Assembly (NCBI GenBank): GCA_022457155.1
Contig: JAJGOT010000122.1
Span: forward strand, 1,149,501-1,213,500
DNA from: Cladopsammia gracilis
Lineage: Eukaryota > Cnidaria > Anthozoa > Scleractinia > Dendrophylliidae
Reading direction: 5' to 3'
Length of the DNA: 64,000 bases
A program made the position numbers and the translations under genes. This document shows, piece by piece, positions 24,413 through 59,192 of the stretch (position 1 is the first letter of the stretch; every line of letters begins with the position of its first letter). Below the pieces are notes generated by a model. The model was not told the origin of the DNA, made no database searches, and saw only the letters and a list, made by a program, of their open reading frames with translations.

Positions 24413-24460
24413 GGGACGTTCCATTTTTAAACCGACCCCCCCCCCCCCCCTATGGATGAG
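24413..24460 (+). repeat. Left terminal inverted repeat of the 33-kb element
   Basis: GGGACGTTCCATTTTT, a short spacer, CCGA, a C15 run and TATGGATGAG. Inverted partner at 57665-57714. Preceded by AAC. Confidence 0.75.
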
Positions 24461-24462
24461 CG

Positions 24463-24705
24463 GATTCCTACCAGTCGAGTTTGGACAAATGACTGATTCC
24501 TACCAGTCGGGTATGGACAAATAACGATTCCTACCAGTCGAGTATGGACAAATAACGATTCCTACCAGTCAAGTATGGACAAATAACGATTCCTCCGGAC
24601 AAATAACTGATTGCTACCAGTCGAGTGTGGAAAGGAACAGAGATTCCTACCAGTCGATTATTCATGGATGAGAGGAGCAGATTCCTACCAGTCGTTCATA
24701 TCAGC
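24463..24705 (+). repeat. GATTCCTACCAGTC satellite, left array
   Basis: About seven copies of GATTCCTACCAGTC separated by about 17 bp, typically CGAGTATGGACAAATAAC, giving a unit near 31 bp. The last copies are irregular, and one is preceded by CATGGATGAG, repeating the junction seen at the terminus. Confidence 0.9.
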
Positions 24706-24827
24706 TGCTGAGTTCCTTCTCCTGCTGGCTGAGTCAATCATAAATTCTTTTCTCAGAGGCTGCATTTTGGGTGCCAAGGAAAATTACACGCATGCGTCAT
24801 AGCTGTCAAAGTAAACCGCGCGCGCTG

Positions 24828-25529
24828 CAATCTCGTTCCCAGAGCTCGCGAACGTTTTTGGTCAGCGGGACGACACGCCTTTGTTGCTGACCGAAAGGAT
24901 CGCAGCCCCTGGAAATGAGATCGCGCGTTCCATGTGAATGTATACCTCTATTTACTTGAAATAATAATAAGAAAATGTTTGAAACAGATTTGAAAAAATT
25001 TCTTTTAATGGGATCTATCCTCTCTTTACAGAAAATTACCTGGTTAAATGGGTACAAGGGCGAGTTTTCATGCATTTGCGTCAATCTTTCCAAACAGTGC
25101 GTTTTTGTTACCCAGAACAAATAACTCAATTATTTTCAACTAGGGACACATTCATGTTTAATCCGCAGCAAGCCAAAAGACAAGGAATGAGATTGCTGTT
25201 CCAGGCGTTAAGATTGTGGTGCGTGCAAGAAAAATTGGGCGCAATGGAAAAAACGAGGGGAGACTGGGGAGAGAGAGGCGAACGCCTCTCTCCCAGTTTT
25301 TCCTCGCGCCGACCCTATAACGCCACGTGCCGCTTTTCGCCGCTCCCCACAATCTAAACGCCTGGAAGAGGCGGAGAATGAGATTATCACCAGTCTGCAC
25401 CAGTTCTTTCAAAGATGCATGATTTCTACCGGAAGCAGGATTCTTCCTTCCGGTTTTTGATTATCCCAGAGCGCAAGAGCGTGTCGTCCGCTGAATTATA
25501 ATACTCGCGTGCTCTGGAAACAAGATTGT
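24828..25529. mobile_element. Inverted-repeat element with nested MITE
   Basis: Arms at 24828-24882 and 25476-25529 are inverted copies of about 55 bp (CAATCT(C/T)GTT(C/T)CCAGAGC...CAGCGG.ACGACACGC). Inside, 25199-25367 is a separate hairpin element with ends TTCCAGGCGTTAAGATTGTGG and its complement. No coding frame of its own is present. Confidence 0.7.
25199..25367. mobile_element. 169-bp hairpin MITE
   Basis: Nearly a full palindrome: TTCCAGGCGTTAAGATTGTGG at the left, CCACAATCTAAACGCCTGGAA at the right, with a GAGAGAGGCG/CGCCTCTCTC centre. The frames open through it on both strands are not genes. Confidence 0.8.
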
Positions 25530-26620
25530 TACGGAGCACGATGATGATTGCGCAGACCGCTGACCAAGGGCTCGATGTCGATACCCGATCCGATATGAAA
25601 TTTCGTGTTTTCAGAAAAATATCGATGTTGTGACGCGATATGGGTGTTGTTTTGATATATTTCGATATTGCCTACTCGACCACTTGGATAAGAAGTTGGA
25701 TGTACATTTTTATACTGTATAATGTATTCCAAGCATATTTGTAAGCGACCATGCACCCTCAGGATCAAGACTGGTCGCTTATGGGAGACGATCGCTTTAA
25801 TCCCGGGCTTTAATACGAGGAAAAGTCACCCCTGCCAAACCAGGTCTCTTGGGACGATAAACTCAAAAGTTCGGGTTTATTCTGGTCATGGTCAGCGACA
25901 AAGTCCCTCCTAGATTTTTCCACGACGTGTCATGCACAGATATACAACTGTTTCGAAAAAGGTTGTCGGAAAAAAGGAGAAAAGTGCACGCGATAATCCA
26001 AAAATTAATTTGGGATATGATCACTGAATGTTAATAAGTCAAATTGAACATCAAATCCGCGATGCCTCGTCCGTACAGCGACGATCTCAGATGGTTGACC
26101 ATATGGATAAAGGAGTTTTTAGGATAAAGCGTTGATGACCACCCACAATATCTTTCGGGATTGTCGCGTGCACTTTTACGCTTTTTTTCCGACATTTCTC
26201 AAAACAGCTGTATGTAACAAGTCAGTCATCTTAAGAAAAACTTAAAACAAAAAACTTAACTTTATTTTGTTTAATGAGAATCTCAGCGTGTATTGAAAAT
26301 TAGGCCAGAACAGATAATAGAAAGTGCAAACGTAAGATACAGTAATATTCAGCTGATTATGAATTGAGGTTCCATATATATATTTTTCATTGTCATGGCG
26401 TGAAGCGACTGCGTGTGGCCTTCTGAGTTTTACTTTGTACTTTTAACCACTGTATAAATCACTGAATAACTTGAAAATGTGTAGGGAGTATTCGTAGAAA
26501 AATACTTAAGTATTTGATTACTCCAAGAACTTGAAGATGTCAACATATTTACAGTCTTCATTGTGTTTCATCAATGTTAGTCCGCTATCCTAGTCGTCTA
26601 GAGTCCTCATCCAGTTCGTA
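25530..26620. other. No gene recognised
   Basis: AT-rich sequence. I found no splice-bounded exons, RNA genes or clear inverted repeats here. Confidence 0.5.
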
Positions 26621-26623
26621 ATT

Positions 26624-27560
26624 TCATTTTGCAACGTCATTTTCGTCGTCACTGTCACCGCTAGAGGCGTCAGAAAAGTCCTCTTTGTGTTCATTTTCCA
26701 TTTTTCCAAGGTCATTTTCATCGTCGTCATTTTCCTCCGGCAAATCAGCACTCTCGGCATTGTCGTAGAAGTCATCCCCATAATCCAATTTAGTGCACTT
26801 AGCGCGTGGACTTTGTCCGGCATTCTCGTTGTCAGTGTCACTTCTTGAGGCGTCGGAAGAGTTCTCCCCATGTTCATCCTCCATTTTTCTTACGTCATTT
26901 TCGTCGTCGTTATCTTCCTCCAGGAAATCGGCCTTCTCATTTTCTGGAACAATGCCTGTAAACTGCTTTGCTCTAGTTGCGTTGTATTAACTTCCTCACT
27001 CATTCCACCCACCATTTCAACATTGTTGACCTCCTTTTCCTTTGCCATGGTTTCCAAACCTTTGCGGAGAGCCTCCTGACGCTTTTTTACCTCTGTGAGT
27101 GCAGCTTGCATGTCGTCTTCTAGGGCTTTATCTTTCTCTTTTTGTCCCTCGCGGTGTTTGACGCATTCTTTAAACTTCTAAGCTTTTCGTCAAGCCTCAG
27201 AAGACTATTATGGGTACTAAGCATGCTTATTGTGCCTTGGTGGACTGTGTCCACCTTTTGCTTTCTTTTGGACGTGTCAGATGCCGACTGCTGGCGCATC
27301 AAACGCTGAGCGTGACTGGAGAGTAGAGCGGTTTTCTTTAGGGTCCACTCGGTTGCGATAACGCCACCAATAGCCCCCTTCGACCATTTTTGGAAGCCTG
27401 ATTTTCCGCAAAGTTCTTCTGCCTTTCGGTTCCAAAACAACCTGTAGAGGCTTTCATAGTCCTTCACTCCGTTAATTTCAGCTCTTGTGTAGAGCTTGAT
27501 CCCTTTTTTCGCGGCATTGGGGTAGCTTTCCAATTCGGGCTTCCCAACAAATTGTCCCAT
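26624..27560 (-). CDS. Coiled-coil protein with acidic tail, unrecognised, frameshifted
   Basis: A coding exon starts just after an acceptor (TTCTAAACAG, then an ATG at 27560: MGQFVGKPELESYPN). The N-terminal 90 residues look folded (DYESLYRLFWNRKAEELCG). A helical region follows, and after a shift near 27178 the frame continues as EKDKALEDDMQAALTEVKK. A further shift near 26900 leads to Asp/Glu/Ser-rich repeats (EDEHGENSSDASRSDTDNEN and a second similar unit) up to a TAA at 26624. The two repeat units in the tail are about 60 residues apart. The function is unknown. It lies inside the putative 33-kb element and could be a cargo or DNA-binding partner protein. The two shifts may be decay or sequence error. 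Confidence 0.5.
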
Positions 27561-33100: not shown

Positions 33101-33240
33101 CCGATTTCTCTACTGCAAAAATACTGCACGCGAAAAATATTTCATGGCCGTTGTAAAATTAAAAGGAGGTCGTCCTAAGAAACTTTAAGAAGAAGAACAA
33201 ATGCAACGAAGTGTTTGAACTCACAAATTTAGTTTCCAGC
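30173..33240. other. No gene recognised; scattered repeat fragments
   Basis: Contains a (CAAT)n tract near 31390-31410 and a stretch at 32655-32720 (TTTTCTTGGATTTTCTAGATCAAGAATAA) related to the inverted-repeat arms at 40909-40968 and 41654-41715. No convincing coding sequence is seen; the 137-codon minus frame at 31605-32018 has no recognised motif and is compositionally like the surrounding sequence. Confidence 0.45.
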
Positions 33241-33356
33241 TGATGCGCCGTTAGCGATCGAAACGGCAATAAGGGAAGACCAGCCCGGACTTTAACACTA
33301 GACTGTTTATTTGCACTATTGAAGAAGTAGTCAACTGAAAAATGGAAACGTTTACA
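33241..33356 (-). repeat. BEL element 2, LTR-like repeat (3')
   Basis: A 116-bp repeat, TGATGCGCCGTTAGCGATCG... to GTTTACA on the plus strand, one mismatch from 39302-39417. The sequence just upstream in element sense is not a clear polypurine tract. The 420 bp between it and the integrase (33357-33775) hold no recognised feature. Confidence 0.75.
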
Positions 33357-33775
33357 AATTACTATAAATTTCTCTATACATTTCGGTCACGCAGTGATTA
33401 AACACACTTACATTTTGTGTTTCTTTTTCCGTGTCTTTAGTCCGTTGAGTTGCGGGTCTTAACTTCTGTAACTTTCGTCGAAATGTACCTCGCGGCTTCG
33501 TTAAATTATAATTTTGCGTTACTTGAGTTGCATGTTTTATATATTTATGAATATATTAAATGACACCTTTTTTCCCGCTCCGCGGTAGTGAGGCGATAGT
33601 TTGAATACACATTCCGAAAGGCGCGTGAAATGCAGATCACTCCGCCCCAGTACGGAAATTAGATATGTTTAACTATTTCTAATTGAGTAACGACTATAAT
33701 AGATGTTACAGCATTCAGTTGTAAGAAATGTCAGAAAATAGCACAATGTCTATCACTTCTGTGTTCTAGCACGAT

Positions 33776-34441
33776 TTAGGAAAGTTCTGCATTCAGTTCC
33801 TGTTTTGTTGCAATAAGACACAATTTATGGATTGGTCTGTCGTATTCTCCATCTTGAGTCTTTATCCTTGCTTTCCTCACTAGTCCATCATTTCCTGGAT
33901 AGGTGACAATGACACGCGCCAGCTTCCACTTTGACCTTTTGTGACTCGGGTCTAACTCCAAAACTAGATCATCAACTTGAACATTTTCTCTTGTGCGGAA
34001 CCACTTGTTTCTGGGAAACAGATTTGGTGCAAAGTATCGCATCCAGCACTTCCAGAATTCATTGACTCGGTCTTGCGTGCTTCTCAGAAGATGCCTCGGG
34101 TTGATCCTTTCTTCAGGTTCAGGTTGAGGAGGTGGAAGATGATGACCAATGAGAATATCATTGGGTGAGATAGGCGGGCTTTCCCAGATGTTGTTGGAAC
34201 TTAGATAAAGCGGACGGCCGTTGATTACATAGGTTGTTTCCGCGAGAAATGTTCTCCATTGCTCTTCGGTGAAAGGTCGATCCTTGCACGTAGCATTGAG
34301 GCTCTGTCTAACAGACTTGATGAGGGTTTCCACGACTCCGTTCTGATGACTTGCGTGAGGGATGTTCCATTGCCATTTGAAGTCACATGAGAAGTCTTCA
34401 CAAAGAACACTTTGAATTTTGGGCATGTTCCAGTTCAGCAT
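33776..34441 (-). pseudogene. BEL element 2 integrase C-terminal part
   Basis: Contains the third catalytic residue of the rve core (HASHQNGVVETLIKSVRQSL) and a DUF5641-type tail (VDDLVLELDPSHKRSKWKLA, then a TYPGNDGLVRKARIKT motif). It is out of frame with the preceding piece because of the deletion at about 34470. Confidence 0.88.
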
Positions 34442-36323
34442 AATTTCGTTTAGGTAACTTTGCGCACCAACAAACGTTGGGGTGGCCGCGCAGGCTCGCG
34501 AAACGGCGAAAAGCCATCAAGAAGGCATCGGACGTTTTGTCGGTGACCAGCTCCAGGTGAACTGCCCTTGTCGTCATGCAGGTGAAAATAACTACTTGAG
34601 CTTCTTTCAGTGTCTTCCGATTGAGTTTAATATGCACGGGTCCAAACATGTCAATGGCGGTGTTGGAGAAAGGGGGGAAACCTGCTGCCACTCGTAGAGA
34701 CGGGATCTGCCCCATAAGCTGGTCAAGAGGTTTCTTGCGAAGTTTTCTGCAAGTGATACACTTTGCGGTGAGAGCTTTGGCCATGCTACGGACTCCTACC
34801 ATCCAATACTTTCTTCTGACCTCATGGATTAAGCTTTTGTATCCACAGTGACTACGCTTGTTGTGTAGGTGACGCAGTAGTAACTTGACAAGAGGATGAT
34901 CACGTGGCAGGATTACTGGGTTTCTCAATTCTTGTGGTAGTGTTGTGGCATCTTCCAGTCTTCCGTGAGCTCGGAGTAGACCGTTTTCGTCCATCTTTGG
35001 AATCAACTTCTTGTCGATAACGGAAGGATCTAAGTCACGTTGACACCACTTGAAGAGAAAATTCTCAGATTCTTTCAATTCTTCGACGGTGATAGGGCCT
35101 GTATTTCTATTCTTCTTTCTTGCGTTCTCAGGGAAACGGCGTACGTAAGCAAGAGTTCTCCTTAATTTTGGAAATGTTGAACAGGTCTTCAGCAACTGTT
35201 GAAGAATAGGGTTACATGTGTCTTCTTTCTTGATTTGTTCTGGGATGGCATTGACTGCTGATGTACATGTGGCTGCTGTGTGTTCCACGGACACATTAGC
35301 TTTCTCAGTTGTCTTCATTTCCTTTAAGACTTCACTTTGAATGCTTTGGTCATCGAGTTGAAAACTGGGCCATTTGGTTTCGGGCAATTGCAGGAACGTG
35401 GGTCCATCTAGCCAACCTGTAAGTTGCGATGGCTCGGTTCCTCTGGTAAGAGTGTCAGCTGGATTACTCTTTGATCTTATGTAGCGGAAGTCTTCCACGC
35501 CGACAGTTTCTTGTATTTCGGCTACTCTTGCTGAAACAAAGGGTTTAAATTTTCGTGGTGGGGTTCTTATCCAAGACAATACTGTTGAAGAATCCACCCA
35601 GAAGACTTTCTTGCACTCTTGGATGTTCACAAATTGCAATGATGTTTTGCAAGTATCGTACATTCTTGCGAGTGTTACACAACCCATGAGTTCCAATCTT
35701 GGGATCGTCTTCTTCTTTATTGGAGCAACGAAGGACTTGATAAGGATAGGCACGCACTTGAAACTACCATTCGTTAGCTCACATCGGAGGAAAATGACTG
35801 CACCATAGGCTTTTTCGCCTCCGTCACAGAATCCATGGACTTGTGGTACACCAACTGCATGACTTGGTTTCAGTTTTCGATCGAATTCAAATGCCAAGAG
35901 GTGATTCATGGTTAGTGCATTCTCCACCCACTGGTTCTGGATGCTCACTGGTAGGATCTCATCCCAGTTGTAGCCTGAAGTCCACAATTCTTGTAGATCA
36001 ATTCTGAACTTGATCGTTACGGGCAACACGAGACCGATAGGGTCCCATAATTGACCAACAAGACCTAGGCAACGTCTCTTTGTCAGGACACCAAGCTGAT
36101 CAAGGTCGTTCTTTTTCAGGGTAAACTTGTCTGTCTGTTTATCCCATCTTAGGCCAAGTAGATCTGTGAACTTGTGATCGCTAGATTGGTCGATTTCTGC
36201 TTCATTTGAATGCCAGGTTTTGATCTGGAAGTGTCCTTTTCCGAGAATAGTGTCAATGTCTTTGGTGAGTTGTTTTGCTGTTGTTGCACTTGCGCTAGAT
36301 CCGCCGACATCGTCCACATACAC
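34398..36323 (-). pseudogene. BEL element 2 RT palm, RNase H and integrase core, broken
   Basis: The catalytic YVDD box lies at 36320-36309. An in-frame TAA (36332-36330) stands just upstream of it. RNase H motifs follow: HGFCDGGEKAYGAVIF, KKTIPRLELMG and WVDSSTVLSWIR, then the NPADTLTRG hallmark. The integrase has its HHCC region (HLHNKRSHCGYKS...CITCRKL) and first catalytic Asp (NTAIDMFGPVHIKLN). After RGHPNV the sequence lacks the segment that should carry the second catalytic Asp and the frame changes (about 34469-34475). Confidence 0.88.
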
Positions 36324-36393
36324 ATGGTCTTAAAGTTCTTTCGCCGCTTCCGGGAACTCTGTTTGAGATAACTTTGCGAGCGTGTTGATGGCG

Positions 36394-39060
36394 TTAGTTG
36401 CAATGTCGGGCAGGTTTATCTCCAAAGTTCAGCCTAAGCCATTGGTACACAGTTGGTGGATCTCTTGGCTTACTCCTCCACAGGAACCTGTGATAGACTT
36501 TATCGTCTAGGTGCACCAATATTTGGTTAAACATTTTGCGCACGTCCCCAGTGTAAGCCACCTCGTCCCATCGCCATGCTGCCAATACATCAAGGAGACT
36601 ATTGATGAAGTTAGGTCCTTTCTCGAGACAGTCGTTGAGGGACAAACCATCGTGACTTTTTGATGACGAGTCAAAGACGAGTCGAACTTGCGTAGTTCTC
36701 TCTGGTGTAAACACGGCTTGCAAAGGAAGGTACCATTCAGGCTTTTCATGGTCAACTTGTTCAGGTGGAACTTTAGTCACAAAGTCCTGATCCAATAGCT
36801 TTTGGACTTCCTCGTCAACGACTTTGAAACAACCTTTTTTCACGAACAATTTTTCAGCAGACAGCAGCCGCTTCAGAGCTATGTCGTAATTGCTTTGTTT
36901 GGGAGGTCCACTTTCCTTCCAGGGCATCTTGACTTGGATTCTACCGTCAACTAACGCAGTCGAGGCTGCTAAAGACTTCACAAACTTGCTTTCACGGATC
37001 AAGTTATCGCTGCATGCACACAGTTCAGTTGGTTTGACACCAAGGAGGTCTTGCTGAAGGAGCTTCTTAATATCCTCCACAACGCTGACTGTTCCGACTT
37101 CTACTGACTGAATTTCTGATATGCTTGAGTTGTTTGACTCGAACTGTCCCAGGACATACCATCCAAAGCAGTTACGTTTTGCAATGGGTTCTCCTGGTTC
37201 TCCAGACATTGTGTGGATATCAATGAAGGCTTCTACGAGGTCTGTGCCAATGAGGAGATCAATGGCTCCGCCCGAAAGATGCAATTTATCAGAAATGTTT
37301 TTCAGATGAGTGTATTGTCCAACTGAACCTTTAGAAATCCTTTTTGCGTTGCTGCAAGGCTTTGCTACAGTGTACACTTGAATGGACTTCGTAATATCTT
37401 CATCTGTAGGCGAGGCAATCGTGATATCGATTATTTGGGAAGGTTCACTCTTCTTCCTTCCTCCAGCCAGATTCATAGTAAGTTGAGTTGCTGATCCATT
37501 TAAGCCAAGTCGTTTAGCTGCAGGTTTGGAGAGCAGACTGGTGTTAGACCCAGAGTCTAACATTGCAAGAATCCCAACAAAGTTCCCATGTCTGTCCATT
37601 GCTTTAACCTTTTGAACTGGGCACAGTCCAGTGACGGGTTTTAACTTCCTTTCTTGACTCACAGCGTTACCTTGGACGTTGCCACTAGCCGGAGCCATAG
37701 TTGAGGGGCCTTGGACTTGACTTTGGAATGGAGGTGCTTTAGGATTTAAGCTTGTGTTTGTTTCGCCAGTAGTCTTTTCATTGTGTAAAGACCGATGGTG
37801 ATTTTTTCTGCATTTGTCGCAGGTTGAACCGTCTGGCTTCTTGCAATCGCTTGTGTGATGCGTTCTAAGACACTTGCGACATCGCCAATGTTGCTTAACG
37901 ATCTCCCACCTTTGGTTGACGGATGCATTATGGTACGTTGGACAGGCAGCGAGATGATGTTTGGTTTTGCAGCCAAGTGGACATGTGTCATCATCAGCTT
38001 CTTCACCACTCGCGGCGTTATTGTCTGACTTTTTGGATCCCTTGTCTCGGCGACTTAGTTCATTCTGTCTTTCCTCAGGGTTGGTACTACTTTTGCCTCG
38101 AGAACGAATCCTGGCTTCCTGATGTAACCAGGTGATGAGGTTGCTAACGGTTTCTTCTTTTCCCTCGCGATTCATCTCTCTACCAAAGTCTGAGTTGTCG
38201 TTTGGATCAAGCTTAGACAGAAGCTGAGACATGAAGAATGGTGCTTCAGAGGACTCTAGCACAGGGCACCCATTCGCTTCCATATCGTTTACATAGCAAG
38301 ATATTGTTGTGGCAAATTGTGTGAAGGACTTGGAATCTCGTTTGACTGACTTGAGATTGTTTATGTCAGACAGCAATTGATCCATCAATTTTCGCCTGTC
38401 TGCGAACTCGGTGTCTAAGATGCTCCACGCACTGTCGATGGTTTTACAGGTTTTAACTTGGTCGGTCCACCACGAACCTTTGGGCATCGCGTTTCTGAAG
38501 CGTTGTAACTGCTCGTCTTTATCTTGTCCATACTTCTCCATCCAATGGTTGAATTCTTTTTTCCACGTAGAATAAGATCTGCGAGCTCCATCCCATGTTG
38601 GTACTGGTAATCTTTGTAGACCACTTGCGTTTGGTTTTGATCCTAAGGTGTCAGCCATTTTTGTTACTGCTGATGACATTGATGTCATTGATGATGATAA
38701 AGCTTCTAAGGTTTCAGAGTTCTTAAATGTTTCTGCTGAATTTTGATCCTTTTGATACGCGGCAAACTTGAGAGCAATTTGAAGAAAATCAGCTTTGGCT
38801 TTGTCTCCAAACTTCCTGGCCGTCAAACACGGTTCTTCGTCTGCGCCAATGGCTTCTTCGACCGATCTGTCGAAAATAGTTTCCTGCTGTTTTTTGATGA
38901 GCCTATATTTTGTCTCTACTTGGTTGAAGGCTGCTTCGAGTGTTTTCAGTTCAGGTTTCACCGAGAGAATTATTTCAAATTCTTCGATCAATTCGTAGAG
39001 AATGTTTACGGCATTTTCCATTTTCCCAACGAGAGTTTTGACATCTACTTTAGGCGGCAT
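36394..39060 (-). CDS. BEL element 2 Gag, protease and start of reverse transcriptase
   Basis: An 888-codon frame from ATG 39060. It has an N-terminal helical region and a DUF1759-type Gag core (PVPTWDGARRSYSTWKKEFN). Cys/His clusters follow (CPLGCKTKHHLAACP; CRKCLRTHHTSDC; CDKCRKNHH). The retropepsin-like site is AMLDSGSNTSLLS. The N-terminal half of reverse transcriptase follows (RLVFDSSSKSHDGLSLNDCL; YTGDVRKMFNQI). The frame runs off near 36396 at a frameshift in the codons after GDKPA. An intact element would continue in the next frame to the YVDD box. Confidence 0.9.
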   Translation of the reverse strand: MPPKVDVKTLVGKMENAVNILYELIEEFEIILSVKPELKTLEAAFNQVETKYRLIKKQQETIFDRSVEEAIGADEEPCLTARKFGDKAKADFLQIALKFAAYQKDQNSAETFKNSETLEALSSSMTSMSSAVTKMADTLGSKPNASGLQRLPVPTWDGARRSYSTWKKEFNHWMEKYGQDKDEQLQRFRNAMPKGSWWTDQVKTCKTIDSAWSILDTEFADRRKLMDQLLSDINNLKSVKRDSKSFTQFATTISCYVNDMEANGCPVLESSEAPFFMSQLLSKLDPNDNSDFGREMNREGKEETVSNLITWLHQEARIRSRGKSSTNPEERQNELSRRDKGSKKSDNNAASGEEADDDTCPLGCKTKHHLAACPTYHNASVNQRWEIVKQHWRCRKCLRTHHTSDCKKPDGSTCDKCRKNHHRSLHNEKTTGETNTSLNPKAPPFQSQVQGPSTMAPASGNVQGNAVSQERKLKPVTGLCPVQKVKAMDRHGNFVGILAMLDSGSNTSLLSKPAAKRLGLNGSATQLTMNLAGGRKKSEPSQIIDITIASPTDEDITKSIQVYTVAKPCSNAKRISKGSVGQYTHLKNISDKLHLSGGAIDLLIGTDLVEAFIDIHTMSGEPGEPIAKRNCFGWYVLGQFESNNSSISEIQSVEVGTVSVVEDIKKLLQQDLLGVKPTELCACSDNLIRESKFVKSLAASTALVDGRIQVKMPWKESGPPKQSNYDIALKRLLSAEKLFVKKGCFKVVDEEVQKLLDQDFVTKVPPEQVDHEKPEWYLPLQAVFTPERTTQVRLVFDSSSKSHDGLSLNDCLEKGPNFINSLLDVLAAWRWDEVAYTGDVRKMFNQILVHLDDKVYHRFLWRSKPRDPPTVYQWLRLNFGDKPARHCN

Positions 39061-39064
39061 TTTG

Positions 39065-39205: not shown

Positions 39206-39301
39206 TGTTGAAGGAACGACTCCACTTGCGATGCAAAGTTTGACGGTTGGACGGTTGTCAATACCACGCGACTCGGCCAATCTTCGATGACAAAATTTGA
39301 C

Positions 39302-45640: not shown

Positions 45641-46285
45641 GCTGAGAAGATTGATAACGAGGTTGAGAAGATTGATAAGAAGGCTGAGAAGACAGATAAG
45701 AAGGCTGAGAAGACTGACAAGGAGGCTGAGAAGATTGATAAGGAGGTTGAGAAGATTGATAAGAAGGCTGAGAAGACTGATAAGGAGGCTGAGAAGATTG
45801 ATAAGAAGGTTGAGAAGATTGATAAGGAGGCTGAGAAGACAGATAAGAAGGCTGAGAAGACTGACAAGGAGGCTGAGAAGATTGATAAGGAGGTTGAGAA
45901 GATTGATAAGAAGGCTGAGAAGACTGATAAGGAGGCTGAAAAGATTGATAAGGAGGCTGAGAAGATTGATAAGGAGGTTGAGAAGATTGATAAGAAGGTT
46001 GAGAAGATTGATAAGAAGGCTGAGAAGATTGATAAGAAGGCTGAGAAGACTGACAAGGAGGCTGAGAAGATTAACAAGGAGGCTGAGAAGATTGATAAGG
46101 ATGCTGAGAAGATTGATAAGGATGCTGAGAAGATTGATAAGGATGCTGAGAAGACTGATAAGACGGCTGAGAAGATTGATAAGGAGGTTGAGAAGATTGA
46201 TAAGAAGGCTGAGAAGATAGATAAGAAGGCTGAGAAGACTGACAAGGAGGCTGAGAAGATTGATAAGGAGGCTGAGAAGATTGAT
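45481..46285 (+). repeat. 21-bp tandem array encoding AEK(I/T)DK(K/E), first part
   Basis: About 38 units of GCTGAGAAGA(T/C)TGATAAG(A/G)AG and close variants, coding a charged, helix-forming seven-residue repeat in the OTU frame. Because the unit is 21 bp, other frames on both strands also remain open and give Arg/Leu- or Ser/Leu-rich artefacts. The array stops exactly at a GAT codon where a LINE begins. Confidence 0.95.
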
Positions 46286-48352
46286 AGCGGAGCACTCGCC
46301 GAGCCAAAGGCTCGGCTGCGCAGCCCCATACTCATAGAACCGTCCCGTCATTTTTCATGGTCATGGCTAGCGGAATGTTTCGCGGGCGCGTCGGTCCGTG
46401 TGCACGTCTGTCCACCCGTTACGTCATCATCGATGATGACGTACATGAAGAGAGAGAAACTGGGAACGAGGCTTTGTTTTTCGCGCGCTTCCCCGCGGCT
46501 ACAAACAGGGCAGTTCGCAAAAATCACGGAAAAAGACAAACAAGATACGCCAATTCCTGAAGCAAAGAAAACGAACCCTAAAACTCGCTAACGTTCTGAA
46601 TATGACAGCGAACAACCTTTGCCGAAGAGGAAAAACACTGGATATCGGACAAACAAACATAAACAGAAAAGCAAGTAACTGTCTAAATGTGATTTGCAAA
46701 AATTGCTAAATTAGTTAAGCCTATGTAAGCTTAAGCTTAATTTTACCAGAAGAATTTTCACCAAGTTTTTACATTCAGAGCTAAATTTTCATCTTTGAAT
46801 ATCCGTGGTTTTGGCAATGAAGCCAAACAACGCTCTGTTTTTGATTTTGCGAAAAATTCCCGTTCTGATTTTGTTTGTTTACAAGAAACTTTAGCGACAA
46901 GTCAAAATGCGATAAATTCTCTGACAGCTAAATGGCGCGGTCAAAGTTTCTGGTCGCCCACTCTTGGTAAACAAGGCGGCGTTGCCATTCTTGTAGCTGA
47001 AAATACTGATTTCAAATGTTTACAATGGAAAAAGAGATTCTTCTGGTAGAAATGTTAGTGTTTTAACTGAACTCGACATCACCAAAATTAATTTTGCACC
47101 CACGAATCCAAGTGAACGAAAATGCTTTTATGATACAATTCATGAATATTTTTTCAGAACTCTTTTAAAATTTTTGCTGGCGATTTTAACTGCATTGAAA
47201 ATGTTTCTGATAAGTTTGGAGGAAATCTTACAATTTCCACGGATTTGAAAGATCTGCACAAGTGTTCATCGTTTATTGATATCTGGCGCAAAAAAAAACA
47301 CGGCCGACTGAAAAATACAAAGCACATGGTGTAACGCGGATAAAACTATCGGTACACGTTTGGATAATTTTTTTATTGCTCAGGACTTGTATGATTCCTT
47401 TCTAAAATGTGAAATTTTGCCTTGTGTTTTTTCCGATCATGATTCTGTTGATTTATCCGCAATTTGCATAATGCATTTTCCCGTGGACCAGGACTTTGGA
47501 GGCTAAATTTAGAATTTAATATTTACGATATGATCTCAGAAATTATTAGGAAACATGTATTGTACCGGAAAGCATTTAATTCCATTCAAGCTTGGTGGGA
47601 TTTTCTTAAAGAATCTATAACATTAGTTGCTATAGATTTTGGTCGAAGTAAACAACGCATATTTAATCGCGGTAAGGCCACGCAACTATAATTTCTTTGA
47701 TCGAAGCGAAACGGGCTCTTATTAAAGGAGATAACTTAGCCAAAACCACCATAGAAACGCTCGAAAGAGAAGTTCGAGCCGTTAATTTATCCCAAATGAA
47801 AGGAAACCAAATTCGTAGCAGAGTCAAATGGCTTGAAGAAGGTGAAAAACCTAGCAAATTCTTTTTTTACGCTCGAAGCAACACGGCTCAGAAAAATACT
47901 GTTCATTGTATTTATAACTCCGCCGGTGTTAAAGTCTTTTAACAAGACTCCGGCTCATTTCGATTTTTACCGTAATTTGTGGTTGCAAGAACCTGTTAAT
48001 TTAACAGTCCAAACCGAATTTTTGAACAAACTTGAAAACAGATTAGAGGGAAATTTTATCCTGCGAAGAATGAGTTTTATCTTTGGCTAAAATTACCCAC
48101 GCAATGCGTGGACTTTCTTCAGGGAAACCCCCCGGTTCAGACGGATTACCTCAAGAATTTTACGCTAAATTCTGGGATCTTTTTGGCCTTATTTAGTTTG
48201 GAAAATAATTCTTTCAGTGATTCAATGCAAGGAGGCGTGACTAGGTTACTTTACAAGAAAGATGATAGGAAAACCTAAAAAAATTGGTCACCCCGCCATT
48301 TCGCTACTCGATGCTGATTACAAAATTTGTTCAAAAGCTCTTACAAACAGAT

Positions 48353-48447
48353 AAAATAACAATAAAAATAATAAAATAACAACTTTATTTCAGTGTCAAG
48401 AAGTGTAGCAGTCTCCCACTAAATAAGGACACTATCCTAATAATCCT
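48353..48447 (-). mobile_element. Short retro-insertion inside the LINE
   Basis: A 95-bp insertion between duplicated ACAGAT (48347-48352 and 48448-48453). In minus orientation it ends in an A/T-rich tail and carries GAAATAAAG, a polyadenylation-like signal. Removing it joins LINE reverse transcriptase codons (CSKALTNR with KVLPSIIQEDQT). Confidence 0.75.
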
Positions 48448-48874
48448 ACAGATTTTCAAAAGTGTTACCCTCGATTATTCAAGAAGATCAAACTTGTTCC
48501 GTCCCAGGTAGAACGATTTTCGAGAATTTATTTATTTCTCTTGCGTGACACTCACTGTCAAGCAAACATGAAAATTATAGCTAATCGTTTTTTGACCAAA
48601 GAAATTCCACTCAAGTCGGGGGTGAGGCAGGGAGATCCCCAGTCTCCACTTTTGTACGCTTTATGCGCAGATATTTTGGCTACCAGTGTAAGAAAGGATG
48701 ATACTATTGAAGGTTTTCTCCTTCCAGAAGCCTGAGGAAAGCGTTTTAAAATTCGCCAATATGCGGATGACTCCACATGTTTTGTGAAGTACATTTCTTT
48801 CTTTAGACAAATTGTTTACCTCACTTCACAAATACGAGACAGGTAAAGGGACTAAATTAAATGCCATGAGGTTA

Positions 48875-49114
48875 CATATATTAACTTTACAACTGTGGTG
48901 TAATTAATTTTTTTTAATAACTCTGCTGTGTTTTTTTTTTCCTTTTCCTTTGCTTGTATATATGTTTGTTATGAATAAAGATTAAAAAATTAAAAAAAAA
49001 AAAAAAAAATATGTGAAAGAAACATCTTACATTTATTTACTATTTTCATTGCCCTCGTATCTGTACAATATGTTCAACTGTAATAAAACATGAATTATTT
49101 AAAAAAAAAAAAAA
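48875..49114 (+). mobile_element. Retrocopy with two poly(A) tails inside the LINE
   Basis: A 240-bp insertion flanked by the 14-bp duplication ATGCCATGAGGTTA (48861-48874 and 49115-49128). It contains GAATAAAGATT then a poly(A) run (about 48984-49007), and a second unit with GTAATAAAACATG followed by another poly(A) run up to the duplication. Deleting it restores a continuous LINE frame (TKLNAMRLGAW). It has no coding frame: a truncated mRNA 3' end. Confidence 0.88.
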
Positions 49115-49960
49115 ATGCCATGAGGTTAGGAGCTTGGTGCTCACATCCGGACAAATCCTTATGGCCTGACGTTGGTGTCAAGAATGCGAATCTTGGGTGT
49201 CTGGTCTAGCAATGGTAATGCAAATTTGAAACCGGATAACTGGTTACCATGCCTTTCCAAGCTAGATTAAAATTTGAACCTGTGGAAGGGTTGTGGGGTG
49301 TTTTCACTCCCACCCTATCGGCACTACTCAATACTAGGTTTTTAGTTAATGTTAAGACTATTTTCTTTTACCTATGGACTTCTGCTTACGATGAGAATGA
49401 CATGCGAGCGCGCTTTTTCATTAAGACCATACTTATGGTATATGGGTTTTTCGAAATAAGGCAACTTTCCACAATGGCACCGAGAACTCTCGGGCCACTG
49501 TAAGGGACATAAGGAATGACATCACAACACAGTTGCAAATTGATTTCTCCCGAATGACCGAACAGAAATTTTCTGCTTTGTGGTGTCATCCGAATATTTG
49601 TGAAGCTTGTGACTCATAATTGAGCTACTGGCAACTCATCATTTCCAAATCAGTTTTTTCGGGTAATTTTCCAGACACAACAGATGTATTTTATTCGGAA
49701 ATTAGTCATGCTAGTTATTCTAGACCGAGAAAATGTTGTTTTGTGAGCTATTGTGTAATTTGTGCAGTCTAAATGTACTGTGCAGACGGTCGCGTTATAC
49801 ACTTACTGTTTTTGAGAATTGCTAAAATTGAAAAATAGTCTGGTCGTCAATCTTAATTCTAATTTTTCTTGTGCTTCTGACCTTTCACCTAAGTTAAGCT
49901 TGTCATCATCGTTTCTGTTCAGAGAGCTCCGCTGTTAGGCTAAGCCTATCTATATATATT

Positions 49961-50815
49961 AAGGATGCTGAGAAGACTGATAAGACGGCTGAGAAGATTG
50001 ATAAGGAGGTTGAGAAGATTGATAAGAAGGCTGAGAAGACTGACAAGGAGGCTGAGAAGATTAACAAGGAGGCTGAGAAGATTGATAAGAAGGCTGAGAA
50101 GACTAATAAGAAGGCTGAGAAGATTGATCAGGAGGTTGAGAAGATTGATAAGAAGGCTAAGAAGGCTGACAAGACTGATAAGAAGGCTGACAAGACTGAT
50201 AAGAAGGCTGACAAGACTGATACGAAGGCTGAGAAGATTGATAAAGAGGCTGAGACGATTGATAAGGAGGCTGCGAAGATTGATAAGGGGGCTGAGAAGA
50301 CTGATAAGAAGGCTGAGAAGACTGATGAGAAGGCTGAGAAGATTGATAAGAAGGCTGAGACGATTGATAAGGAGACTGCGAAGATTGATAAGGGGGCTGA
50401 GAAGACTGATAAAAAGGCCGAGAAGACTAAAAAGAAAGCTGAGAAGACTGATGAGAAGGCTGAGAAGATTGATAAGGAGGCTGAGAAGATTGATAAGAAG
50501 GCTGAGAAGATTGATAAGGAGGCTGGGAAGATTGATAAGAAGGCTGAGAAGATTGATAAGGAGGCTGGGAAGATTGATAAGAAGGCTGAGAAGTGATAAG
50601 GAGGCTGGGAAGATTGATAAGAAGGTTGAGAAGATTGATAAAAAGGCTGAGGAGACTGATAATAAGGCTGAGAAAATTGATACGAAGGCTGGAAAGACTG
50701 ATAAGGAGGCTGAGAAGATTGATAAGGAGGCTGAGAAGACTGATAAGAAGGCTGAGAAGAAGGCTGAGAAGACTGAGAAGAAGGCTAAGAAGATTGAAAA
50801 GAAGGCTGATTTACA
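49961..50815 (+). repeat. 21-bp tandem array, second part
   Basis: The array resumes with AAG GAT GCT GAG, in frame with the GAT at 46283-46285. About 40 units; some are shortened to AKKADKTDKK types. A 2-nt loss at about 50593 (AAGTGATAAG) shifts the coding frame. Near its end the units become AEKKAEKTEKKAKKIEKK. Confidence 0.95.
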
Positions 50816-51151
50816 ATGTCGCCCGACTTCGCTGGCAAGTGAACTTTGGCAACTGAAACTCAAAACTGGTCAGTGTTCCACACCAAAGAGTAATAATAAG
50901 AAAAGGAAAAAGCGTTTCTCATTCTTGGATACCACACATCACCGTGGAAAAAAAAATTAAGATCGCCGAGAAGGAGGTTGATGATGAGGCTACGAAGGCC
51001 GATGAGGCTATGGACAAGAACCAACCAAATGCGTCCAATCTAGGAACATTTTCTGCATTTTCTGAACATTTTCTGCACACATTCTCTGCACATTGTCTGC
51101 ACTCGTCTTCTAACACAAAACCCAATCGCAAGTATCTTTCTAAAAAAAAAA

Positions 51152-52543
51152 ATGTCAACCACTCTGGCGTTTGTTTTGCATGCGTATTTTGGTGATAATA
51201 AAAACCGATCCGAAAAGGACCTGACTGAAGGAAAAACTAAATCAAATAGAGTACCGTCAATCAGGGAATTTTTTTCTAAAGGAAAATCCAATGAACGTTC
51301 GTCCGAGAACCCTTCCCTAACTTTGGCAACATCGCAGAATTGGTACAAGAAACAAGGAGAACTTTCAAGGGCAAATACAGCAAGATCTATGAAAAGACAA
51401 AGTTGCGAAACTGGAGAAATGACAATCAACAACGAAGCGTTTTCGTTTGTCTTAGGCTCGAAAAGTAAGGAATCATTGTCTGATAGCATCGGTCACTTGA
51501 AGAAATTGATCCTTGGAGCTAACGGCAAAGAAAAAGCGCGCTTTTCTGGAGTGCTAGAAGTTGCTCACTCTTTACGAGACTCCTTTCCATTGATGAAAAC
51601 GCAGAAAGCTGGACAGTTGTACAAAATGAAAGAAGAGGAATCTGACGAAATCAACAAGGATAACGAAACCAAAACCGTACGCACTACGTCATCGGAAATT
51701 TACAACATTCTGTCCAAACATCTGAACATAATGCATCTGTATATCAACGGCACTGGTTTTATCATGGAAAGTAAAAACGAAGGACATTTTCGACAGTTTT
51801 TTGAACAGATGATCCACCTACTTCAAACTAAAGATTTTAACACGTCTCTAAACAGACATATTGAGGACGAAATTGGAAAGAATTATAAAACTCTGCTGAG
51901 TTACATGGACATGGAAAGAGACAAAAGTGCCATGAAGTATATATTGACAAAAATCACCAGTGTAGAGTTTGCAAGCAAACTACAAAACACCTCGAACAAG
52001 GATTCCACCAGGCGCAGTCGCGATATCATACCCAGTCACCTGCGAAGATTTTCGCAGTTGAGAGATGATATCCGGAAAGAACTGCAAAAAAGAAATTTAA
52101 CGAAAAGAAAGGAAAGATATTTAATGAAAAGAACTCTAGAGGCGGAAAAAATGAGGCAAATGCGGGTAAGGAACAGTGAAAGAACGGGACAAAAGCTAAA
52201 AGTGGATGAGTTTCCAGACCTCGCAGCAGTTATAGAGTACGAATTCAGGGAAGGTGACCACAGAGAGCGTGGAGGTGGTAGACTTGAAAGTCACTCCAAG
52301 TTAAGGAAGGAGCTTCTGTATAAGGCAGCCGATAACAAAACCAAAATGAAGGATGCCAGAGAGGCTATTCTTGTGTTGGCCCCAGAGGACTTTACAATCT
52401 CGCTATCGACATGCTTTAATTACACGCAAAACTTCAGAAAGGGCACACTTGAAGCAAGACGTCATCACGAAGGCCGAGGAGTGAATGCTTGCGTTTCCCT
52501 GCATAAGGCTCCGGATACAGCCCCAATCAGAGATAGTCATTAA
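51152..52543 (+). pseudogene. Middle region of the giant protein
   Basis: A 463-codon segment with no recognised domain. It opens with a possible start (MSTTLAFVLHAYFGD) but is more likely the continuation of the frame left at the A10 run just upstream. It is rich in Lys/Arg and helical (a QLRDDIRKELQKRNLTKRKE stretch). It ends with a conserved-looking block (DEFPDLAAVIEYEFREG, ALAPEDF-like VLAPEDFTISLSTC) that leads directly into the DDE-like region. The last residues after RD are out of frame. Confidence 0.6.
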
Positions 52544-54260
52544 TATTCACCAGACATCGGCAAATGTTAATTACGTCATGGACAAAGCTTCAAAAGAAGG
52601 AAACAACTACTGCGTGGAATCCCGGGATGCGAAACAGGTGATACGAGCAAATGTAGGACATGGAGGACGTACGTGGCATAACAGAGAATCCAGACCACAC
52701 TTTCGACACATCAAGAACCAACGCCGTGACCCGGATGACCCATCTGTTTGTCGAGTCAATAGAAACGAAAAGAACGGTCACATTAACCAAACAGCCTAAA
52801 CTTCAAGAGCTCTTTCTTTCACCGTCGCCGAGATCACACGTGGTGATACACGCGAAAAGAACTGGAAGAGCAGTTACGATGCTAAATCTATCGCACTACG
52901 AGCCGGAAACAGTTTTTTGTTCATTTAATGAATTACTGTATATAATGACACTCCCCGCACTCGATTCATGCTTCCGAAACCCAGAAACCGGAAACATTAA
53001 AGAAATACTTATACATCTATTGTGGACAACGGAGTAGAGAAACCTAGAAGTCCACTTGTAAAAATGCTTCTTGTTCGTTTGAGGCGGCTGATAGGCTTTA
53101 AGGCAGTGGTTCACATGTCTTTCGCTGAATATCATAGCAAGAGAAACCCTGTCGAGCGAGTTCACGCTGTACACACCAAGGAACTTGAGAAACACGGGCC
53201 ATTTAAGGTTCCTAGCCTTAACATAGACAGCGAACTGCATGTTAAGAAAATGGAGGAAATGCGCGAGGAGGTGGAAGATGTACTTAAGCAGGCAAAATTT
53301 GGTGGACAGTACACGATGGTCAAAAAAGGTGTTGGAGATGAAAGTAACTTTGTGTTCAATGATATGACAAACCTTCATGCTTTCTTGTCAATGAACGAAG
53401 ATCATAAGGCGAAATGTGACATGCAGTACGAACTGAATAAAGGTGCAAACATCTTGAAAGACTTGGCTCAAGTCTGGAATGTTGACACGACCATGACAGG
53501 AAGCTATTTGGATGACTATGAGATTTTAAACAACAGTTATTCCTCAAGTCATCGAACAGCCTGGACAGACAAATATACAACTGTCGTATTTGATGAAGAT
53601 TCAGAAACCGAATTCGAATGGAAGCAGCCTCTTCTGGACTATGTTCGCTGGTATCTTACAGGAGGTGAGCAACATAACATGACTTTTGAAGAACGAAGTC
53701 AGCTACCCAAAGGAACGTGGGATGACATTGTAGAGCTGTTCTTACCCTCCAAGGTTCTAGATTTAATCTACCTGGTTCATCCACACATCAGCGAGACATT
53801 GTACAAAGATTTGGCTCTGCTGACTTGGTGTTCCAAAGAAGTAAAGCACTATTTACACAACAAAAACGAGGCCTTAAAAGATTTGGAAAGTTCTTTGCAT
53901 TTAGCACGGTGGCGAAACCACGACCTTTTTGCCAAATCCAAATCTGCACTGGAAGAGATGTGTAGAAGGCATAATTTAGGAAACGAGGATTCCAAAAGTA
54001 GGCTAGTGGAAAAGTTATGCCACAAGCTAAATTTGGAAGAACCTGCCGAAATCCAGGACTTCGACGGAGACTTGAGAGCCATACCAACGGAACTCAAGGA
54101 GATTTCTAAACTGCTGGTGTTCAAGTTAAAACAATTTCTACACTTCTACAACCTTCGATGGTCGGGAAATAAAGACCAACTGGCACTTAGAGTTCTGGCG
54201 CTTCGAACTGGAACTACCCATGTCTTATTTCAAAGAGAGCGGGACGGTGTATGCAGATGA
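52485..54260 (+). pseudogene. DDE/RNase H-like region and SAP motifs
   Basis: Three overlapping open pieces (52485-52799, 52660-53037, 53022-54260). A possible catalytic layout, in order: INIHQTSANVNYV; PDHTFDTSRTNAVT; FIVDNG-like IVDNGVEKP (likely Asp); FAEYHSKRNPVERVHAVH (likely Glu). The last two resemble the D...E part of rve/DDE enzymes. Then come two SAP-like DNA-binding motifs: ALEEMCRRHNLGNEDSKSRL (about 53945-54015) and VFKLKQFLHFYNLRWSGNKD (about 54117-54180). The transposase reading is inference; the SAP motifs are fairly clear. Confidence 0.55.
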
Positions 54261-54999
54261 TTGAGGTGGCTGAACAATTAATTTCGGCACAAAATGAAAT
54301 CAAGATCTTAAACAACGAGTTTGTCATTAGACAGAGAGCTTTTTCCACCCCAGCAGGAAACAGTCTATCGTCTTCGAGGCCCAGAGAAGCAGCCGGTCAA
54401 CCTTCTAACAAGAAAAACGTCAAAGTGATGGTCCCAGAATGCGTAACTCTTTCCTGTTTGGAAGATATGTTTCAGGATATAAAACGTGAAATAACACTAC
54501 TGAACAAAGATTCAGCCAAGAAATATGACCTGTACAATCTCAGTACTCTCAGAAGCAAGAACAGCAAAGTCATGGTTAAATGGACCAAAGAAGATAACAT
54601 TAAAGGTTGGAAACCAGGATGGTATGCAGCCATCATCAGGAATTATAGAAAAGATTTGGATGTGATTGAGGTTGAGTATGTCAGCGAACCAGGAAAAGTG
54701 TACTTAGTCAAAGTCAAAGAGAGCGTGGAAAATGGAACTTTACGCGTCCATGCTACCACTTGTGATGTACCAGATCTGTATGATCAAGTGACCGAAATTG
54801 GGGCATTCCTCTCTATCAGATGGACCAAGGAAGAAGTTAAGGGAAGTGGCGGAAGGCGGCCTGGTACCAGGCAGAAGTCCAGGCCTTTGACCCTGACATA
54901 GACGAAATAACCATTATATACAATAGAGAGCCAACGGTTATTTATTCGGAATGTGTTACGCGATTAATATCCGAGGGAAAAGTAAGGAGAAGAAAGTAA
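54251..54999 (+). pseudogene. C-terminal Tudor-like tandem of the giant protein
   Basis: Two SH3-like/Tudor-like units. The first is VKWTKEDNIKGWKPGWYAAI, then DVIEVEYVSEPGKVY (about 54570-54710). The second is IRWTKEEVKGSG, then, after a shift near 54850, AAWYQAEV and DEITIIYNREP (to about 54950). The Trp-x-x-x-W/Y pattern with a following acidic Y-x-x-EP is alike in both. Such modules bind methylated tails or nucleic acids in other proteins (family knowledge). Ends KVRRRK and TAA. Confidence 0.6.
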
Positions 55000-55459: not shown

Positions 55460-55659
55460 AAGAGGAAATGATTGCTCTCCTGTTTTGGCAGCGCACGCGG
55501 GCAAGATGAGGCGAATCCTGCGATCTGATTGGCTACCCGAGCGGGCAAGATGGGCCCATTTTGCTCGTTTGGGATTTTTGGGATTTTTGGGGATTTTTTT
55601 TCTTTGTCCCGCAAGAAAAAATTTTGTTTTGGCCATAAAATAAATTATTTATTGACCAA

Positions 55660-55802
55660 GCTTGTTCGGTCAAGATGGCCTAATATTGACCTCGTTTTTT
55701 TTTTTTTGGCGTTTTTATGGACCTTGAGTCCTCGACTTCGTTTTGGTCCATAAAAACGCAAAAAAAAAAAGAACTCGGCCCATATCCCACCATCTTGACC
55801 TC
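55660..55802. repeat. Long hairpin
   Basis: GGTCAAGATGG...CTCG-T12-GGCGTTTTTATGGACC faces GGTCCATAAAAACGC-A11-GAACTCG...CCATCTTGACC about a short loop (CTTGAGTCCTCGACTTCGTTTT). It is probably a foldback or MITE; the open frames through it are not genes. Confidence 0.8.
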
Positions 55803-56680
55803 ACGCTAACGCATATTGTACCAGTATGCCATGGACTTGAGCCGTTAGATCCTTGCAAATGCTCTGCCACTGAACAATGAAGACATTTAAATCTTGCCGG
55901 AGTGTGATCTTGATAGACAATAAACAAGTATGATTTGGATCTGTTAGGTTATTGTTGGCTGAGACTATTATCCAACCAATGTTAGCATATATTTTCATAC
56001 ATTTTTAGGAATTTGATTATCATAATATCCGCTAGCAAAATTAACCAGGTTGTCACTAAGCAACGAACATCTGCTGGAATGTACAATTACATTCTGGCAA
56101 GTTTTCGCATAACCATTCGATGAGAGGGCCTCTGTACACTGTATCCTGATCGTTCTGAATCTGCAAACTTTGTTGGAGTTAATCCAGAAAATCGAATGTT
56201 TTGAGTTTACTTTTGAAAGTGGCAACCAGGTTTTCCTTTGTTGCGTTTTTCAATACTGATGCGTCCGATATGATGATTGACGGCAGTGAAAAACGAAATC
56301 GTTGGTTGAATCTCAAATGTCTGACTCCGCATGTTATTGGAAAGCGCAGTAAGTTCACTTTTTATAAGTAATCTAGTTTAATTAATATGTTATCCGAATT
56401 ATCCTGGCTTATTGCTGGCACGAACTTATAATGGAGCCGTTTGGTTCCATTTGATTACGAACAATGTTCACTTAAATTAATTTACTAGTTATATTAAAAT
56501 ATTTACATGCTAACATCATTCATTTTTGTTTCATTGTTTTTAAGATATAAACAGAGGTCACGTCCACTCTATAGGTTACAACCCAATTTGTCCAGTCAAT
56601 GTTATGATTGGCATAAAAAAGTCATTTCAAGAAAGTTTGGAAGCAAACAAATTCAACGGCAGTAATAGCGTAAAAAAAAA
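55803..56680. other. No gene recognised
   Basis: AT-rich sequence. At its right border (56681-56700) stands AAAGCCTGATCACAGGTTA, the terminus of the element type seen at 9520-10274, here without its partner. Confidence 0.5.
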
Positions 56681-56716
56681 GAAAGCCTGATCACAGGTTA
56701 TTTTTTATGAATCAGA

Positions 56717-57655
56717 CTGACAGCCAAGGTAGATTACTACCAGTCAGAGGAATATTCAGTTCAAACCGAATTGAAGCAGAGGCAGATTCCTACGGGCCTG
56801 TAGAAAAAATCCGCGGAGATTCCCACCAGTCAAATAATCGGAACGCTGGATACTCTCATTCAAAGCAGATTCCTACGAGCATGTAGAAGTATCGGAGCAG
56901 ATTCCTACCAGTCAAATAATCGGAACATGCAAAACAGATTCCTACGGGCATGTAGAAATATCAGAGCAGATTCCTACCAGTAAAATAATCGGAACATGCG
57001 AAACTTTCGTTCAAAGCAGATTCCTACGGGCATGTAGAAATATCGGAGCAGATTCCTACCAGTCAAATAATCGGAACACGCCAAACTATCACTCAAAGCA
57101 GATTCCTACGGGCATGTAGAAATATCGGAGCAGATTCCTACCAGTAAAATAATCAGAACATGCGAAACTTTCACTCAAAGCAGATTCCTACGGGCATGTA
57201 GAAATATCGGAGCAGATTGGGCCATTCCATTTAATATCCGCACCCCCCCCCCCCCTATTGAGGGGTAATTATGAATTTTACCCCTTAGGAAAAAAAAGAT
57301 CAAAGTGCCGACACATTTCCCCCTTCAGAAAAGGAAAGATGTTGTTGATTGATTAAAGGTTCCGACAAAGTTACCCCTTCAGAAATGACTCTTGAACCCC
57401 TCCCCTCCCCCTAGGATTTCCCTACCCTTCAATAGGGGGGGTGCAGACATTAAATGGAATGGCCCATTCCTACCAGTCAAATAATCTGAACACGCCAAAC
57501 TATCACTCAAAGCAGATTCCTACGGGCATGTAGAAATATTGGAGCAGATTCCTACCAGTCAAATAATCTGAACACGCCAAACTAGCACTCAAAGCATATT
57601 CCTACGGGCATGTAGAAATATCGGAGCAGATTCCTACCAGTCAGGTGAACAGGTT
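56717..57655 (+). repeat. GATTCCTACCAGTC satellite, right array
   Basis: Alternating blocks GATTCCTACCAGTCAAATAATCGGAACATGC and GATTCCTACGGGCATGTAGAAATATCGGAGCA form a higher-order unit of about 100 bp, repeated some nine times. Same direction as the left array at 24463-24705. Interrupted by a MITE at 57219-57465. Confidence 0.93.
57219..57465. mobile_element. MITE with GGGCCATTCCATTTAATATCCGC ends, ATT duplication
   Basis: A 247-bp insertion in the satellite. Ends are GGGCCATTCCATTTAATATC...GCACCCCCC and the inverted GGGGGGTGCAGACATTAAATGGAATGGCCC. ATT is duplicated (57216-57218 and 57466-57468), so removal restores the satellite word CAGATTCCTACCAG exactly. The 3-bp duplication and GGGC ends match the Harbinger element at 669. 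Confidence 0.9.
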
Positions 57656-57664
57656 GCAAAAATA

Positions 57665-57714
57665 CTCATCCATGGGGGGGGGGGGGGGGGGTCGGAAGAA
57701 AAATGGAATGTCCC
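57665..57714 (-). repeat. Right terminal inverted repeat of the 33-kb element
   Basis: On the minus strand: GGGACATTCCATTTTTCTTC, CCGA, a long C run, ATGGATGAG. Partner of 24413-24460. Followed by AAC. Confidence 0.75.
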
Positions 57715-59138: not shown

Positions 59139-59192
59139 TACTTTTATTCATTCCTTCATTTAATTTTCTTCTATTTTTTTTCTTTTTTACAC

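Follow-up and report, generated by a model that had tools for sequence, protein, structure and literature searches.

A probable cut-and-paste transposon with subterminal satellites and a giant DDE transposase-like gene in the coral Cladopsammia gracilis

Introduction

CACTA/EnSpm elements combine a 3-bp target-site duplication with repeated subterminal motifs, a second protein and termini reading CACTA/G, and PIF/Harbinger elements make 3-bp duplications with a preference for TWA. Here we analyze a 33.3-kb inverted-repeat element with GGGAC ends in the coral Cladopsammia gracilis. It lies in a stretch of 64,000 nucleotides (contig JAJGOT010000122.1 of assembly GCA_022457155.1, positions 1,149,501 to 1,213,500, forward strand), referred to below as the window and used for all coordinates unless another locus is named.

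ISAzo13 and Zator are related and both make 3-bp duplications (PMC10045372); Zator has been placed with the IS630-Tc1-mariner group (PMC7386202). Ginger1 carries a DDE core and a C-terminal OTU domain in one protein, has TGT termini and makes 4-bp CCGG/CCGT duplications (PMC2836005). Kolobok elements make 4-bp TTAA duplications, and KolobokP makes duplications of 3-5 bp and is built of LTDR-internal-LTDR units (PMC9587614).

Results and discussion

A single inserted element with exact ends

The initial annotation had read the locus as one Penelope-like copy split by a giant DNA transposon with satellite ends and cargo genes. We consider it likely that a single cut-and-paste transposon copy entered an old Penelope-like fragment with a 3-bp duplication, that its ancestral form measured about 13 kb, and that it was later inflated to 33.3 kb and is now a relic. 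The boundaries are as follows.

24410..24412, left copy of the target-site duplication, AAC
24413..24460, plus strand, left terminal inverted repeat (TIR), beginning GGGACGTTCCATTTTT
57665..57714, minus strand, right TIR, beginning GGGACATTCCATTTTT on that strand, delimited by alignment to the left end
57715..57717, right copy of the target-site duplication, AAC

The flank ends TTTTCAGAAC at 24412, directly before the left terminus, and restarts AACTACACTCACCC at 57715; the right terminus stops at 57714 before AACTACACTC. Aligned in inverted orientation, the two termini are identical at 43 of 48 bases, so that the annotated inverted match of about 48 bp and the AAC duplication both stand, with exact boundaries. 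A terminus pattern allowing up to two mismatches matched the window only at 24413, 57699 and 29481 (plus orientation), and a looser pattern added just the two ends of a nested element described below.

An inverted match of this kind with a short flanking repeat is, taken alone, weak evidence and not rare in 64 kb. The window holds 334 inverted pairs matching at 15 or more of 16 positions, 3 of which carry a 3-bp flank repeat, and 20 Markov shuffles of the window yielded 13 such pairs with a 3-bp repeat in total (about 0.65 per shuffled window). The element is judged real because of the length of its terminal match, the gene inside it and the family to which its ends belong. It has the general attributes of a DDE cut-and-paste transposon, namely TIRs, a duplication of fixed length and an internal DDE gene, although the copy in the window is the only one seen to combine both ends with the gene.

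Satellite arrays adjoin both termini, as the initial annotation had noted.

24463..24693, plus strand, left subterminal satellite, 7 GATTCCTACCAGTC-like units spaced at about 31 bp (repeat and pattern scan)
56731..57643, plus strand, right subterminal satellite, units of about 82 bp in the same direction as the left array, broken by a nested element (repeat and pattern scan)

With up to two mismatches allowed, 7 GATTCCTACCAGTC-like units were counted at the left end and 9 at the right, every one on the plus strand. The arrays are thus direct repeats and not mirror images, and their unit lengths differ. One extra GATTCCTACCAGTC-like match, on the minus strand, lies outside the element at 23890.

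A family of short copies with 3-bp duplications

Searching the 877.8-Mb assembly with the left terminus gave 39 matches. Two of these belong to the window itself and three are the far ends of pairs already counted; without them, 34 other loci remain, with 1.2 to 9.9 kb of surrounding DNA each. Partners were sought within 6 kb and picked by their match to the terminus, not by their flanks. An inverted partner was present at 30 of the 34 loci, and identical 3-bp flanks accompanied 26 of these 30 pairs, the identity being exactly three base pairs long in 25 of the 26. The duplicated copies measure 79 to 722 bp, except one of 4,469 bp that has been enlarged by an insert, a repeat also found at 46287-49962 in the window. 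The four paired copies without duplication (L006, L010, L019 and L027) span 329 to 1,079 bp. For L012, L014, L023 and L033 no inverted partner was found in the 9.9 kb around each; given the 6-kb reach, any longer copies would sit among these four. L020 and L022 share their flanks and probably represent a single insertion present on two contigs, which reduces the set to 25 distinct insertions, and L021 sits in a microsatellite. Many short copies carry 5 to 16 satellite units and others none.

A transposon family with 3-bp duplications is therefore real and is seen here mainly as short non-autonomous copies. The initial annotation had held that its proposal would fail if short copies (under 3 kb) with unrelated interiors were the only form. 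The data go part of the way towards this refutation: short copies make up 30 of the 34 loci (79-1,079 bp, and one of 4,469 bp), but the long form in the window carries a transposase gene. The terminus pattern had 0 matches in the viral_contigs collection.

PIF/Harbinger membership is not borne out, as TTA and TAA are absent from the 26 duplications. The CMITE elements of Acropora, described with TTAA duplications, are likewise distinct from the GGGAC family (PMC2872659).

A giant DDE gene paired with a second gene

Two conserved genes lie head to head inside the element.

26938..27560, minus strand, gene B, frame-broken, 10 homologues (homologue search; match to P0074)
44624..46286, plus strand, gene A 5' part, OTU-like domain followed by the start of a linker of 21-bp-unit repeats (Pfam OTU E 0.0032, under the cut-off; collinear with P0008)
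49963..54996, plus strand, gene A 3' part, DDE core, SAP and, in our own reading, two Tudor-like repeats, with several frame breaks; acidic codons at about 52626, 53025 and 53154

Gene A has more than 100 relatives, the named ones cnidarian or molluscan. Its family consists of DDE proteins of about 1,500 to 2,100 amino acids, with the OTU-like domain N-terminal and SAP and Tudor-like domains C-terminal to the core. Its DDE core is predicted to adopt an RNase H fold and its acidic columns are conserved in the alignment of relatives; among the best fold matches of the model are Mos1 and Metnase. Foldseek rows without a DDE protein were left unused, and transposase families missing from the fold-match list count as no evidence. 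We predict gene A to be a DDE transposase gene, although a fold by itself is no demonstration of activity. A sequence-profile search of solved structures returned weak SAP-type and unrelated matches only, and Pfam detects the family mainly via SAP and weakly via OTU. The copy in the window is a relic, judging by its broken reading frame.

Within the same genome, gene A matches occur in at least 76 places, with 47 of 118 candidates scored. If the matches in the window and one fragment (C141:967715-968248, 70-71%) are left aside, identity to the query is 26-58%, and five places (C629, C1, C834, C326 and C756) lie in open frames of more than 1,500 amino acids. Pattern searches for relatives in viral_contigs and genome_contigs gave 27 and 54 matches, of which tblastn confirmed none. 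No description of the gene A protein or its element was found in literature searched by title and abstract; Repbase lies outside that search and may hold an entry.

The gene B frame (27560-26938) matches P0074 at 68% over 146 amino acids. A Pfam search for its function gave no convincing match, and its structure model, at pLDDT 59, was of insufficient quality for interpretation. L041 was the single long open gene A locus examined beyond the window. There the gene A frame, 2,087 amino acids long, opens at 1345. Positions 465-235, on the other strand, encode a relative of gene B (35%, E 2.9e-13), so that by sequence comparison the head-to-head arrangement is repeated between highly diverged copies, at one locus of one examined. 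The 9.9 kb covered at L041, which stop short of the element ends, contain no GGGAC terminus and no satellite.

Several further features of these genes were recorded. The gene A linker in the window contains a long array of 21-bp units at 45477-46286 and 49960-50792 that codes for EKIDKEA-like repeats, and the L041 frame holds an array of 51-bp units. Between genes B and A of L041, positions 870-909 and 1103-1142 form a 40-bp inverted repeat (90%), a possible shared promoter or binding site. The Paramuricea protein P0073 (1617 amino acids), annotated as zinc finger MYM-type 1-like, is homologous to gene A and has other domains in its central part, through either fusion in the gene model or nesting of an element.

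Later insertions account for much of the size

Other repeats are nested in the element.

33240..39418, minus strand, BEL/Pao long terminal repeat (LTR) retrotransposon, LTRs of 118 bp (117/118 identical), encoding peptidase A17, integrase zinc binding and DUF5641 (domain and repeat evidence)
46287..49962, 3.7-kb repeat interrupting the 21-bp-unit array and so splitting the gene A linker; also inside short copy L009
57219..57465, 247-bp miniature inverted-repeat transposable element (MITE) within the right satellite, with GGGCCATTCCATTT... ends of related type, flanked by a separate 3-bp duplication, ATT (57216-57218, 57466-57468)

Together they amount to at least 10.1 kb of the 33.3 kb and leave a remainder of 23.2 kb. 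Inverted pairs at 39.5-43.6 kb suggest further repeats there, and parts of 28.8-30.5 kb recur in L033 and in the DNA of L009 outside the L009 element. The starts of gene B and gene A are 17.1 kb apart here (27560 and 44624) as against less than 1 kb at L041. Judged by this one relative, the core probably measured about 13 kb. The idea of a giant DNA transposon with cargo genes thus survives in part: an inverted-repeat element with satellite ends and a 3-bp duplication interrupts what resembles a single older locus, but its size is inflated by at least 10.1 kb of repeats and its conserved genes are a transposase gene and a partner, not cargo. We rejected a giant cargo transposon as the principal explanation, because later insertion accounts for at least 10.1 kb and, by extrapolation, about 20 kb.

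The 3.7-kb repeat recurs outside the element, in opposite orientation, at 20643-21716; one of its ends carries a GC-rich hairpin.

The interrupted locus

The target is partly recognizable in the left flank.

23837..24155, plus strand, last part of a frame-broken coding region for a Penelope-like GIY-YIG protein (Pfam GIY-YIG E 3.4e-4 on 23837-23944)

The match comes from a 36-amino acid piece and falls just under the Pfam cut-off; a second coding piece in the left flank had no Pfam match. The uninterrupted junction of the target is expected to read TTTTCAGAACTACNCTCACC. Pattern searches of viral_contigs and genome_contigs, which asked whether the right flank completes this Penelope-like copy on its 3' side, gave 0 matches. 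Two inverted pairs lie outside the element: 23491-23518 with 58421-58448 (27/28 identical, TA on both outer sides) and 22627-22735 with 59124-59223 (89/100 identical). They resemble the termini of older elements that received first the Penelope-like piece and afterwards the GGGAC element. Their symmetric nesting supports one original locus, and both flanks probably derive from it. The annotated interruption of one Penelope-like copy thus holds for the left flank, by its weak GIY-YIG match, and for a single older locus; a Penelope-like identity of the right flank was not borne out.

Mechanism and competing explanations

The proposed history builds on the ends, the duplication, the short-copy family, the predicted DDE fold with its conserved acidic residues and the gene pair at two loci. 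The ancestral unit would have run from left TIR through 31-bp satellite, gene B (minus), gene A (plus) and 82-bp satellite to right TIR, and insertion of other repeats would afterwards have brought it to 33.3 kb. In this model the DDE core of gene A would recognize and cleave the GGGAC ends, and integration would follow with a 3-bp stagger. CACTA elements use subterminal repeats; here SAP, and perhaps gene B, may read the ends or the satellite arrays, which makes satellites or TIRs candidate binding sites of the gene A protein or gene B. The gene A protein may also move the short copies in trans. The OTU domain, if it trims ubiquitin, could shield the complex from ubiquitin-driven turnover.

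The main gap in this history is that no second copy joining GGGAC-type ends to gene A was found among the 34 terminus loci or the own-genome gene A matches. The 30 paired copies elsewhere are short, with a left end closely like that of the window. Both observations would fit a composite move, in which two short elements flanking host DNA with a gene A relic were carried together once, by another transposase acting on the outer ends. We regard such an event as unlikely: the terminus scan of the window detected no correctly oriented inner end near the left terminus, a distinct 82-bp satellite adjoins the right end, and gene B and gene A are paired at L041 too. The duplication and both flanks would fit a single insertion of everything between them, and the nested insertions may have preceded it. 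That the full 33.3 kb moved in one piece, together with its nested elements, nevertheless seems quite improbable, given that gene A is frame-broken and the L041 relative compact; the 117/118 identity of the BEL/Pao LTRs against 43/48 for the element ends suggests, without proof, that the retrotransposon came later. Finally, the shuffled windows would allow ends from two unrelated copies with an accidental 3-bp match, or an assembly artefact. We give this very little credence in view of the 43/48 match, the two symmetric outer inverted pairs and the 3-bp duplications seen at 26 of 30 paired family members.

Relationship to known transposons

For the single-transposon reading, kinship most likely lies along the Zator-ISAzo13 line, as far as sequence comparison indicates, though this does not prove membership. 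The 3-bp duplication (AAC here; 26 of 30 paired copies) is as expected for that line, as is a DDE core with a predicted RNase H fold and aligned acidic columns. The Pfam profile DDE_Tnp_ISAZ013 matched 1 of 47 gene A members in one set, under the cut-off (E 0.0031), and 0 of 26 in another. We compared the gene A DDE core by hhalign with an ISAzo13 profile, a thin set of five transposase rows (two partial) taken from named plasmids. The match was weak (score 27.4, E 0.008 for a single comparison, probability 4.9%). None of 100 column shuffles reached that score (best 24.3, mean 15.9), and the reversed profile and a BEL integrase scored 15.3 and 14.3; global mode gave nothing (score 1.0). The core of the local alignment is 41 columns round the first acidic motif, where ISAzo13 VDTK falls on gene A VDS at D210 and not on the invariant D213. 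Greedy extension of this alignment placed ADCGGSNG and SKWNRIEHRLF of ISAzo13 over VDNG and SKRNPVERVH of gene A, with D facing D and E facing E, and thereby brought three acidic residues into register.

ISAzo13 proteins that were read whole have 415 to 697 amino acids, whereas gene A relatives reach about 2,000, and the element adds OTU-like, SAP and Tudor-like parts, a second gene and subterminal satellites. CACTA/EnSpm shares the 3-bp duplication, subterminal repeats and a second protein but is set apart by its CACTA/G termini against GGGAC here; it was compared by traits only, the profile comparisons covering ISAzo13 and the one BEL integrase. Zator was compared by description only, its likeness being the 3-bp duplication (PMC10045372); the fold matches of gene A to Mos1 and Metnase stand beside the placement of Zator with the IS630-Tc1-mariner group (PMC7386202). 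Ginger1 resembles gene A in joining DDE and OTU in one protein (PMC2836005) but differs in that OTU is N-terminal here, duplications are 3 bp and ends are GGGAC. Kolobok is similar as a group of animal DDD/E transposons with an extra nuclease gene in some lineages, and differs by its TTAA duplication, which the GGGAC family copies lack.

More tentatively, and with somewhat less than even confidence, we propose that the element represents an unnamed eukaryotic DDE superfamily, present at least in cnidarians and molluscs and derived from or sister to ISAzo13-Zator. It would be marked by a giant OTU-DDE-SAP-Tudor transposase, a conserved second gene arranged head to head, 3-bp duplications and direct satellites at both ends that also occur in short mobile elements. 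Some gene A copies have been annotated in cnidarian and molluscan gene sets, either as 'hypothetical protein' or with an unrelated name, and may pass for host genes. A DDE transposase with putative deubiquitinase and chromatin-reader parts would raise the question of how transposons meet host chromatin and protein turnover. The short copies are an example of a DNA transposon carrying dispersed satellite blocks.

Neighbouring repeats

Other mobile-element remains surround the locus. On the minus strand at 59450-61409, just beyond the right flank, an Integrase-core frame accompanies a phospholipase A2-like frame, which we take to be perhaps a Polinton-like element. The region 11394-17208 is probably a second BEL/Pao-like element: its direct repeats of 210 bp are 97.6% identical, and it has gag, protease and integrase frames, all on the minus strand. 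A frame at 4429-4968 (minus strand) with a weak HTH_Tnp_4 match under the cut-off is perhaps a Harbinger-like transposase fragment.

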